Part shown: one piece after another, positions 32,310 through 44,394 of the stretch
Numbering within the stretch: position 1 is the first letter of the stretch
How the letters are laid out: each line of letters opens with the position of its first letter
Source of the DNA: Acidobacteriaceae bacterium
GTDB lineage: Bacteria > Acidobacteriota > Terriglobia > Terriglobales > Acidobacteriaceae
Direction: 5' to 3'
DNA: 64,000 nt
Assembly (NCBI GenBank): GCA_903970395.1
Contig: CAJCIM010000110.1
Location: forward strand, 1-64,000
Made by a program: the position numbers and the translations under genes
The notes under the pieces: generated by a model
Seen by the model: only the letters and a program-made list of their open reading frames with translations
Databases searched by the model: none
Told to the model about the DNA's origin: nothing

Positions 32310-33293
32310 CTATCCTCTGTCCTCTATCCCCTGCTCCACCGGCTTCATCCGCACAATGCGGTCCACCGCATACGGCGAACGCTGCGCATGTGTAAAGAAG
32401 TGCCTCACCTGCAACTCACCCAGCAATCCCACACCAATCAGCTGGATTCCAGCCAGAATCAACACCCCAGCAATGATGAACCACGGTCCATGTTCGCCGG
32501 CAACATCATGCCCGCTCAGCAGCTTGTGCGCCAGCAGCCAGATCGCAATTCCGCCGCCGCTCAGCTCCGCCAGCGCGCCAATGCCGCCGAAGAAGTGCAA
32601 CGGCCGCGTCATATACTTCAGCAGGAACCGAATCGTCAGCAGGTCGAAGAACACCCGGAACGTGCGCGAGATCCCATAGTGGCTGCGCCCGGACTCACGC
32701 GCCGGATTAGAGATCGGCACCTCGCAGATGCTCGCGCCATACCAGCTAGCCAGCGCCGGAATAAACCGGTGCATCTCGCCGTACAGCGGTATGTTCTGGA
32801 TCACTTCGCGCCGATAGCCCTTGAACGTCGTGCCGAAGTCGTGGATGTCCACGCCCGAAAGCCGCGCCATCATCCAGTTCGCGACCCCGGAAGGAATACG
32901 CCGCATCACCATATTGTCGGCCCGCTGTGCTCGCCAGCCGCTCACGACGTCGTAGCCCTCTTCCAGCTTCGCCAGGAACAGTGGAATCTCCGCTGGATCA
33001 TGCTGCAGGTCGCCATCCATCGCCAGGATGAACTCACCCGACGCGTGGTCAAATCCTGCAGCTAGAGCAGACGTCTGCCCGAAGTTCCGGCGCAGCTTCA
33101 CCAACAGAACCCGCGAGTCCACCGCCGCAATCTCCTCTAGCAGCCGGTAGGTACGGTCTCGCGAGCCATCATCGACGAAGACCAGCTCAAAGCTGGAGCC
33201 AACCTGCTCCATCACATCTTTGGCGCGGTCATAGAGCTTGGTGACGTTCTCTTCCTCGTTATGGAACGGGACGACGATGGAGTATCTAGGCAC
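32310..33293 (-). CDS. Membrane glycosyltransferase family 2 (polyprenyl-phosphate GtrB/ArnC type)
   Basis: The 327-residue protein begins YSIVVPFHNEEENVTKL and has the GT-A motifs LVFVDDGSRDRT, LRRNFGQTSALAAGFDHASG and ILAMDGDLQHDPAE. RESGRSHYGISRTFRVFFDL is typical of DPM1/GtrB enzymes. Two hydrophobic helices follow (about 230-255 and 271-293). It transfers a sugar from a nucleotide donor to undecaprenyl phosphate for use outside the cytoplasmic membrane. The start is GTG 33293. The acceptor and the flippase partner are not in the window. Confidence 0.9.
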   Translation of the reverse strand: MPRYSIVVPFHNEEENVTKLYDRAKDVMEQVGSSFELVFVDDGSRDRTYRLLEEIAAVDSRVLLVKLRRNFGQTSALAAGFDHASGEFILAMDGDLQHDPAEIPLFLAKLEEGYDVVSGWRAQRADNMVMRRIPSGVANWMMARLSGVDIHDFGTTFKGYRREVIQNIPLYGEMHRFIPALASWYGASICEVPISNPARESGRSHYGISRTFRVFFDLLTIRFLLKYMTRPLHFFGGIGALAELSGGGIAIWLLAHKLLSGHDVAGEHGPWFIIAGVLILAGIQLIGVGLLGELQVRHFFTHAQRSPYAVDRIVRMKPVEQGIEDRG

Positions 33294-33366: not shown

Positions 33367-33443
33367 GGCCCGGTAGCTCAGTTGCATAGAGCAGCGCACT
33401 CCTAACGCGAAGGTCGCAGGTTGGACTCCTGCCCGGGCCACCA
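33367..33443 (+). tRNA. tRNA-Arg (anticodon CCT)
   Basis: A complete 77-base cloverleaf with encoded CCA is present. The acceptor arm GGCCCGG/CCGGGCC has seven perfect pairs. The D arm is GCTC-AGTTGCATA-GAGC, the anticodon loop CTCCTAA (33399-33405), and the T arm GCAGG-TTGGACT-CCTGC. Two oddities are visible. The D loop has G18-C19 instead of G18-G19, and the T loop has G56 instead of C56, so the 19-56 tertiary contact becomes C-G instead of G-C. The anticodon stem GCGCA/CGCGA pairs only in its central three positions. It reads the rare AGG codon. It may be functional but unusual. Confidence 0.88.
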
Positions 33444-33458
33444 CGCATCTCTCCCACC

Positions 33459-34145
33459 ATGCGGATACTCATCATCGAAGATGAAGTGCGTCTCGCCGAA
33501 AACGTGGCCACCGCGTTCCGAGACCGCTACGGCTCAGCCGTGGATTGCGCGCACGATGGCCTCGAAGGCTTTTCCCTCGCCGAGTCTGGTCATTACGACC
33601 TCCTCATCCTAGACCTGATGCTTCCCGGCGCCGATGGACTCAGCATCGTCACCAAACTGCGCACACGCGGCGATGCGACACCGATCCTTATCCTCACCGC
33701 CCGCGACGAGCGCGCCCATGTTATCGACCTGCTCAACGCCGGCGCAGACGACTACCTCACCAAGCCCTTCGACCTCGGCGAGCTGCTCGCCCGCGGCAAG
33801 GCCCTCATCCGCCGCGGCAAAGGCGTAGCCAACACTGTCCTCACACTCGGCCAGCTCAGCCTGAACTCCGTCGAGCAAACCGTTCACGGAGACAGCCAAC
33901 TCGTCGATCTCTCACCTACCGAGTACCGCATCCTCGAGTACCTCATGTTTCGCCCACGAGCCATCGTCTCCAAACGCGAACTGCTTGAGCACCTCTACGA
34001 CTATCGCTGGGAACACCACTCCAACGTTATCGAGGCTCACGTCTCCAACCTGCGCAAGAAGCTGCGCGCCACCGGCGAACTCGCCCTCGTCGAGACCATC
34101 CGCGGTCGCGGCTACCGCCTCTCCGTTCCGGAAGCGTCCCAGTGA
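33459..34145 (+). CDS. OmpR/PhoB-family response regulator
   Basis: The 228-residue regulator has a receiver with E/D residues in ILIIEDEVRLAENV, phospho-acceptor D52 in LLILDLMLPGADG, T in ILTARDE and K in YLTKPFDLGELLA. A C-terminal winged-helix DNA-binding domain follows (LVDLSPTEYRILEYLMFRP ... NVIEAHVSNLRKKL ... TIRGRGYRL). It overlaps the kinase start by four bases (GTGA), so regulator and sensor are made together. The gene follows the tRNA by 15 bases. Convergent orientation toward the RND operon suggests, but does not show, that it regulates efflux. Confidence 0.95.
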   Translation: MRILIIEDEVRLAENVATAFRDRYGSAVDCAHDGLEGFSLAESGHYDLLILDLMLPGADGLSIVTKLRTRGDATPILILTARDERAHVIDLLNAGADDYLTKPFDLGELLARGKALIRRGKGVANTVLTLGQLSLNSVEQTVHGDSQLVDLSPTEYRILEYLMFRPRAIVSKRELLEHLYDYRWEHHSNVIEAHVSNLRKKLRATGELALVETIRGRGYRLSVPEASQ

Positions 34146-43143: not shown

Positions 43144-44394
43144 TTACACCCGTATCTTCGCCGCGCGTCGCTCCTCAGCCGCCAGTCGCACCCAAGCAAG
43201 CTGGCTGTTATGCCTCCTTAGGTCGCGCAGCGCATAATGAGTCCCACGCCACACCACGCCACCCTTCCACCAGGTCGCAGCCATCGAGCGTAGTATCGCC
43301 CAAAGAAACGCCAGCGCACCCAGCGGATACAACCAACCATACCGCGCATCTATCTCGCTAATCTCTCCCATCACGCGATACGATGCGCCGACACAGCACA
43401 GCACCATCACCCCAGCCCCTACCGTCGGCCACCACCCCATCTCTACAAGCGGAGCCAGAAAGAACAACATCATCCAAAGCATCGCGCCCAGCACCAGCAG
43501 AGGCCTAAAGTTGAACGCTGCAAAAAAATTCTTCGTCATCACGCGTACCAGCCCAAACGCACCTGCGGCCCAGTGCAACTGAACTAGCCCGGGCGCGAAT
43601 GCCATCCGCTGCCGCATCCCAGCCAGCTTCATTCGCCGCCCAATCGTCACATCTTCCAGGATCGCCAGCCGCTGCGGTGTCCATCCGCCAATCTCCTCCA
43701 GGGCCGTGCGCCGCACCAGGTTGAACGCACCCACACCCACCGTATCATGCGACTTCGGATCGCTCAGCCGCCACGGCCGCGCCGCCCACATCATCCCCAG
43801 AACCTGCAAAAAGCCCAGGATCACGCCCTCGCCCCAGCTGTGAACCTTCATCGTCGGAAGCACCACCGCGTGGTCGGCCTGCTCGGCCTCCATAAACACC
43901 ATGGCGCGCCGCAGCACCGAGGGCGAAAACAACACGTCGGCATCCGTGTACAGCAGAAATTCCGAGTCCGAATTCGCCGTTGCCACCTGCAGCGCAAACG
44001 TCTTGCCCAGCCACCCCTCCGGCAAGTCCGTCACGTGGATTACATCCAAACGCCCTGGCATCTTTGTCGCATACTCCGCCACATACGCATCAACGATACC
44101 GCCGGTCCGGTCTGTAGAACGGTCATCGATCACCAGCACCTTCAGAGCCGGGTAATCCGCCAGCATCAGCGCATCCAGCGTCGCCGCAATATGTGCCTCT
44201 TCATTCCTCGCCGGCACCACCACTGTCAGCGACGCCACATGACGCGGCAGCCTGTCCCATCCAACCCCTGTCAGGCGCGGCATGCGCGGCATATGCTTCA
44301 CCAGATCGCTCGTACGCCACACCCACGCCGCAGCCACCAGCCAAGCCGTCGTCTCTGCTGCTGTTCTCCAAAGCTCTCGTGCATCTGCAATCAC
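43144..44394 (-). CDS. Glycosyltransferase family 2, HpnB-like, membrane-bound
   Basis: The 416-residue protein has an N-terminal helix (TAWLVAAAWVW), a GT2 catalytic domain (SLTVVVPARNEEAHIAATLD, VLVIDDRSTDRTGG, FLLYTDADVLFSPS, RLAILEDVTIGRRMKLAG) and three or four C-terminal helices (LLVLGAMLWMMLFFLAPLVE ...). The layout resembles HpnB, the hopanoid-associated glycosyltransferase, and CrtQ-type enzymes. The exact acceptor is unknown. GTG 44394 overlaps the stop of the MFS transporter gene (GTGA), so the two are coupled and may act on the same lipid or sugar. Confidence 0.85.
   Translation of the reverse strand: MIADARELWRTAAETTAWLVAAAWVWRTSDLVKHMPRMPRLTGVGWDRLPRHVASLTVVVPARNEEAHIAATLDALMLADYPALKVLVIDDRSTDRTGGIVDAYVAEYATKMPGRLDVIHVTDLPEGWLGKTFALQVATANSDSEFLLYTDADVLFSPSVLRRAMVFMEAEQADHAVVLPTMKVHSWGEGVILGFLQVLGMMWAARPWRLSDPKSHDTVGVGAFNLVRRTALEEIGGWTPQRLAILEDVTIGRRMKLAGMRQRMAFAPGLVQLHWAAGAFGLVRVMTKNFFAAFNFRPLLVLGAMLWMMLFFLAPLVEMGWWPTVGAGVMVLCCVGASYRVMGEISEIDARYGWLYPLGALAFLWAILRSMAATWWKGGVVWRGTHYALRDLRRHNSQLAWVRLAAEERRAAKIRV

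Follow-up and report, generated by a model that had tools for sequence, protein, structure and literature searches.

A compensated C19-G56 elbow pair in a conserved acidobacterial tRNA-Arg(CCU) and its bias towards arginine tRNAs

The G19-C56 elbow pair is near-universal in tRNAs and holds the corner of the molecule together. It presents a flat face that is recognised by the ribosome, RNase P, RNase Z and T-loop enzymes. The elbow stack A58-G18-R57-G19-C56 is closed by the 19-56 pairing (PMC4810234; PMC7912444), and the T-arm consensus for TruB is 53-GUUYRANYC-61 (PMC7912444). Bacterial arginine identity resides in A20, C35, U/G36 and position 73, in contrast to leucine identity, which depends on G19-C56 (PMC9976931). 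One paper writes 'C19-G56' for a ribosome-bound tRNA, with no further comment. In the open-access literature searched, neither a natural tRNA with C19-G56 nor a bias of elbow re-pairing towards arginine was found, which is not proof of novelty. The gene described here encodes a tRNA-Arg of known kind; its elbow variant, and the arginine bias of such variants, look new. As in the canonical elbow (Zhang and Ferre-D'Amare, 2016; PMC4810234), a Watson-Crick pair between D-loop position 19 and T-loop position 56 lies atop the elbow stack; here purine and pyrimidine are exchanged, and partners such as the ribosome and RNase P meet an exposed flat face that is altered.

The tRNA-Arg(CCU) gene and its elbow pair

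The window (the whole stretch of DNA analysed, 64,000 nucleotides from an Acidobacteriaceae bacterium) carries a tRNA-Arg(CCU) gene with encoded CCA at 33367-33443 on the forward strand, to which all tRNA positions below refer. Coordinates, strand and anticodon were exactly those given by the sequence-only reading, as found with ARAGORN and Rfam. The covariance-model search that it had proposed gave a match to RF00005 of 56.5 bits (E 7.7e-11; gathering cut-off 29), and the cloverleaf was also called by ARAGORN. In standard numbering the tRNA reads GGCCCGG TA GCTC AGTTGCATA GAGC A GCGCA CTCCTAA CGCGA AGGTC GCAGG TTGGACT CCTGC CCGGGCC A CCA.

With the bacterial elongator tRNA-Arg(CCU) of RF00005 it shares the cloverleaf, A20, the CCU anticodon (33401-33403, reading AGG), U33, an A/G73 discriminator (here A73), the encoded CCA, G18, T54, T55 and A58, and it differs by C19-G56 and by an A31-C39 mismatch. 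The D loop has G18-C19-A20, with C19 at 33385, where almost all tRNAs have G; its partner in the T loop TTGGACT (T54, T55, G56, G57 and A58; 33421-33427) is G56 at 33423, where almost all tRNAs have C. The canonical G19-C56 is absent, and a Watson-Crick 19-56 pair is present together with G18, U55, R57 and A58. A20 (33386), the main bacterial arginine identity base, is retained, as are C35, U/G36 and 73 (PMC9976931). Because G56 breaks the T-arm consensus of TruB, GUUGGACUC having G at 56 where a pyrimidine is expected, reduced Psi55 is predicted for this tRNA.

When the tRNA was folded as a single strand, the D and anticodon arms were not recovered as in the cloverleaf, a result that says nothing on tertiary folding. 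A consensus scan for a promoter or terminator beside the gene gave no match, the consensus being uninformative for Acidobacteriota.

Conservation in the Acidobacteriota and genomic surroundings

The gene was searched for in 60 relatives, 27 of them belonging to the genus or standing very near it. Identical or near-identical copies, with C19, G56 and no pair at 31-39 or 27-43, were found in 25 of these 27. Most are the identical 77-mer; the others differ by one D-loop base, by one base at 39, or by a T stem GGCAG/CTGCC, and the T arm is fully paired in every variant, this alternative T stem included. Genus genomes that lack the full gene usually retain a 3' fragment. Among the named records with the identical tRNA or a close variant are Granulicella mallensis, Edaphobacter modestus and Terriglobus roseus. 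Since many independent genomes carry C19-G56, a sequencing error was ruled out; standard G19-C56, which had been proposed as the sign of such an error, was seen in this gene only in other genera.

Sister genera of the same family (genomes G030, G031, G033 and G034) have an Arg(CCT) gene alike in family, anticodon, D stem and A20, with G19-C56, G30-C40 and U31-A39. Relative to these, positions 19, 56, 30, 40, 31 and 39 have changed in the Granulicella/Edaphobacter/Terriglobus clade, a group of soil Acidobacteria, and C19 is invariant within it. Because the sister genera have G19-C56, the swap is, on this comparison, derived in the clade, and the change of both partners proposed at the outset holds.

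At the level of the phylum, C19-G56 was found in 26 of 297 Acidobacteriota genomes and U19-A56 in 3 of 297, all in Arg(CCT) genes; A19-U56 was found in one of 149 genomes, in an Arg(UCG) gene, and two more were found by another route. Every swapped tRNA seen in Acidobacteriota is thus a tRNA-Arg, and all Watson-Crick combinations occur at 19-56. The intermediate with G19 and G56 was found in none of the 297 genomes, and A, C or T at 19 with C56 in none of 149. Positions 19 and 56 formed CG in 29, GC in 18 and UA in 3 of 50 distinct Arg(CCT) genes and were unpaired in none, in line with the covariation in related acidobacteria that had been proposed as a check; these genes were partly selected by pattern and the counts are not frequencies. 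A20 and the core of the anticodon loop are invariant across the same 50 genes. Paired cells amounted to 96.5% against 73% in shuffled sequences, with 16 pairs changed on both sides, in a set of sequences that were partly chosen by pattern. The earlier view that compensation suggests selection is strongly supported by the conservation across the genus, the repeated origins (see below), the presence of all Watson-Crick combinations and the G19/G56 class standing at 0/297.

The anticodon arm (33394-33410) has the stem GCGCA/CGCGA, in which, as first read, only the three central pairs 28-42, 29-41 and 30-40 form; G27-A43 and A31-C39 are unpaired. The 27-43 mismatch is shared with relatives whose Arg(CCT) gene is canonical, and the A31-C39 mismatch is specific to the Granulicella/Edaphobacter/Terriglobus clade, where it is kept, as A31-G39 in Terriglobus. 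In one genome (G196, locus L747) the pair is G28-C42 instead of the C28-G42 seen elsewhere, with A31-C39 retained, a compensatory change. On account of this change, the 27-43 mismatch common to canonical relatives and the retention of A31-C39/G39, the stem is, to judge by its variants, maintained, with one conserved mismatch at the loop end, in a pattern unlike decay. A31-C39 may be a clade-specific feature, tolerated or tuned, rather than a sign of decay.

The two mismatched stem pairs are one of the points in favour of relaxed constraint, by which a CCU tRNA that reads a rare codon, readable also by tRNA-Arg(UCU), would drift to decay, its unusual elbow and its stem mismatches acquired on the way. 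In the larger open reading frames of the window, 4.9% of the arginine codons are AGG, and a complete genome of the genus (G007) has a canonical tRNA-Arg(UCU). This explanation is unlikely, however: the sequence is invariant over most of the genus, unpaired 19/56 combinations were not found in the phylum (scans of 297 and 149 genomes), and the stem has been compensated in L747. The loss of conserved positions and the variation among relatives that would mark a pseudogene were not seen. The suggestion of decay made from the weak stem is not supported, given the near-constant sequence, the intact identity elements and the G28-C42/C28-G42 exchange, and the alternative reading of that stem as a specialisation is not needed.

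In the complete genome G007, 46 tRNAs were called by ARAGORN, and in 45 of them the T loop begins with the standard TTC, the swapped gene being the exception. That gene is also the sole Arg(CCT), no second one having been called by ARAGORN in this genome. The search for another AGG-reading tRNA suggested by the sequence-only reading thus had a divided outcome: AGG could be read by the canonical tRNA-Arg(UCU) too, and a second tRNA-Arg(CCT) is absent. A further tRNA-like gene, resembling tRNA-Glu, was observed with the same body in two genomes of the genus (L984, G000:C210:20438-20512, and L186, G007:C1:358220-358294, both on the reverse strand). Its anticodon loop has 8 bases (ACACTCAT) and lacks the usual U33, and its T stem is bulged. 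The gene was missed by ARAGORN, scored 41 bits with Rfam, and by inspection of the sequence lies downstream of a xylose isomerase-looking gene in both genomes; it may be used outside translation.

Upstream of the tRNA lies a glycosyltransferase family 2 gene (32310-33293, reverse strand; PF00535), which, the window left aside, adjoins the tRNA in 21 of the 24 full-length loci in the genus; near one canonical Arg(CCT) of a sister genus, the orthologous glycosyltransferase is about 3 kb off. The response regulator gene downstream (33459-34145, forward strand; PF00072/PF00486) was not found at the other genus loci of the tRNA. Such comparisons show the region 3' of the tRNA to be variable. Between 33459 and 44394 the window has, beside an ispG-like gene, genes of response regulator, kinase and efflux type; the glycosyltransferase encoded at 43144-44394 is similar to one situated just past an island in G007.

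That island (L259:3108-14619) is an integrative mobilizable element of 11.5 kb, inserted in tRNA-Arg(CCT) between 49-base direct repeats; it encodes a tyrosine integrase and a MobF relaxase. The repeat corresponds to the 49 bases at the 3' end of the tRNA gene (33395-33443), a segment that is duplicated exactly in several genomes of the genus and serves in relatives as the attachment core of integrative elements. No second copy of this core was found within the window, and the downstream genes of the window are not claimed as a tRNA-borne mobile island, there being no att repeat in it.

An integrative element of this kind might have brought in a foreign 3' half with G56, to which C19 was then compensated. 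The 49-base core is used for attachment by integrase-bearing elements, the T stem in the genus differs as a block (GGCAG/CTGCC versus GCAGG/CCTGC), as replacement of the 3' end predicts, and a partial 3' copy occurs in Brevundimonas too. Yet C19-G56 is already present in genomes with the ancestral type of T stem, which places the visible 3' replacement after the swap; no donor with G56 was seen, and the dominance of arginine across anticodons and in phages (below) would be left unexplained. A mobile-element origin is accordingly held to be improbable.

Recurrence in other bacteria and in phages

GTDB species were scanned with an anticodon-blind pattern in the standard D-stem frame, with G18-C19 and a T-loop G56, which detects only tRNAs with the D stem GCTC/GAGC. 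At least 119 stretches and at least 42 distinct C19-G56 tRNAs were recovered, and 36 of 42 were tRNA-Arg among the matches listed. Among the same matches, C19-G56 occurred in Arg(CCT) of Acidobacteriaceae, Brevundimonas, Marinicaulis and Blastocatellia, in Arg(CCG) of Aridibacter and relatives and of one Holophagaceae genome, and in Arg(TCT) of Symploca; the remainder were single cases of Ala, Asn, Gly, Pro, Thr and a tRNA with an ACT anticodon. Other tRNAs with C34, which under relaxed constraint should be equally dispensable, were hardly represented among the swapped tRNAs of the matches listed. For three Symploca loci (L090, L134 and L177) ARAGORN called a tRNA-Pyl(CTA), which in the standard 7-base loop register becomes a tRNA-Arg(TCT) with C19-G56. 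Bins labelled Verrucomicrobia, Rhodanobacteraceae and Bordetella (L110, L092 and L135) were seen to carry tRNA-Arg(CCT) of the Acidobacteriaceae or Brevundimonas type and are probably misnamed or contaminated.

Acidobacteriaceae, Brevundimonas and Blastocatellia each acquired the swap separately. Elsewhere in the Caulobacteraceae the pair is G19-C56, and the nearest of these tRNAs (L754) is distinguished from that of Brevundimonas chiefly by positions 19 and 56 and the T stem, so that the origin in Brevundimonas is independent. The swapped Arg(CCT) tRNAs of Brevundimonas and Blastocatellia show the same compensated elbow in the same isoacceptor as that of the window; by their canonical relatives they are of separate origin, and their 31-39 pair is normal, unlike that of the window tRNA. 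In Blastocatellia, U19-A56 in Arg(CCU) and A19-U56 in Arg(UCG) were also found.

Viral tRNAs were scanned in IMG/VR, in full for C-G, U-A and G-G at 19-56; the figures for A-U and for canonical tRNAs are those among the matches listed, so that shares within a class are comparable and totals between classes are not. Some of the loci are host tRNAs at prophage edges. Arginine accounted for 15 of 25 C-G and 42 of 63 U-A tRNAs, and, among the matches listed, for 58 of 114 A-U and 83 of 488 canonical G19-C56 tRNAs. Compensated pairs other than GC were thus arginine tRNAs in 115 of 202 cases (57%), the other 87 being non-arginine, versus 83 of 488 (17%) for the canonical pair (odds ratio 6.4, P 2e-24; among the matches listed). 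The enrichment persisted after clustering at 80% identity (odds ratio 5.7, P 3e-15) and within one D-loop length (odds ratio 11), again among the matches listed. A candidate observation, that unpaired intermediates are fewer in arginine than in other tRNAs, was dropped: 47 of 51 non-arginine 'mismatches' have a G at 20 able to pair with C56, and the apparent excess of mismatches in non-arginine viral tRNAs is mostly a register effect.

A20 was retained in 78 of 79 compensated viral arginine tRNAs of one D-loop length. Six non-arginine viral tRNAs have A20 (one swapped, five canonical), too few to separate A20 from arginine identity. The near-constancy of A20 in these tRNAs also fits the idea that G19 is needed in most tRNAs to direct dihydrouridine to U20, so that A20 would free arginine tRNAs at position 19; the enzyme hDUS2 requires the G19-U20 step and leaves tRNA-Arg-ACG unmodified (PMC11046453). 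hDUS2 is a human enzyme, however, and non-arginine viral tRNAs with C20, likewise without U20, gave 4 swaps to 99 canonical versus 15 to 63 for U20 (among the matches listed), and we regard release from this modification as an unlikely cause.

Escape from tRNA-cutting toxins or defence enzymes that recognise arginine tRNAs by the elbow or the anticodon arm would fit two facts: swapped arginine tRNAs are common in phage contigs, and evasion of such defences by phage tRNAs is known (PMC10264068; PMC11555353). The published changes lie in the anticodon loop, though, with no mention of the elbow, D loop or T loop; that loop is unchanged in the window tRNA, no toxin was identified, and the chromosomal swap is fixed across genera. 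Such an escape is very unlikely to account for the swap.

Arginine identity and the elbow

The reading that we favour, and consider probable from the comparisons above, is that the gene encodes a vertically inherited, functional chromosomal tRNA-Arg(CCU) that decodes AGG, in an elbow that needs a pair and tolerates other letters, a freedom found mainly in arginine tRNAs. Both partners of G19-C56 would have changed in the ancestor of the Granulicella/Edaphobacter/Terriglobus clade to give C19-G56. By its geometry this pair should preserve Watson-Crick pairing and hence the stacking of D loop and T loop and the L shape of the molecule. The tRNA would then be charged by the single arginyl-tRNA synthetase (ArgRS) through A20 and the anticodon and serve ordinary translation. 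Selection at 19-56 would demand a pair and not particular letters, the letters being freer in arginine tRNAs. The most plausible cause of this freedom, from correlation, may be that bacterial ArgRS anchors on A20, the D-loop neighbour of the 19-56 pair.

ArgRS matches were found at one locus per genome in the 24 genomes searched, which ruled out a second synthetase for the swapped tRNA. The protein of G007 has the ArgRS N-terminal domain and is assigned as an arginine-tRNA ligase by NCBIfam. The ArgRS of Acidobacteriota (e.g. L960:331-2331) is divergent, with an archaeal protein (2zue) as its best solved match, and is unlike that of Caulobacteraceae. The type of ArgRS does not explain the swap, because Brevundimonas has an ordinary one.

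A bolder proposal, which we put forward as tentative, is that arginine tRNAs have a corner rule of their own, by which any Watson-Crick 19-56 pair will do and is repeatedly switched under selection, be it from the docking of ArgRS at A20 or from an attacker directed at arginine tRNAs; the 'universal' G19-C56 would thus carry identity information. The swaps point to an arginine-specific rule that is absent from the open-access papers searched. Natural, conserved and recurrent within one amino-acid family, they provide compensated variants that would show which partners of the elbow need the pair and which need its letters.
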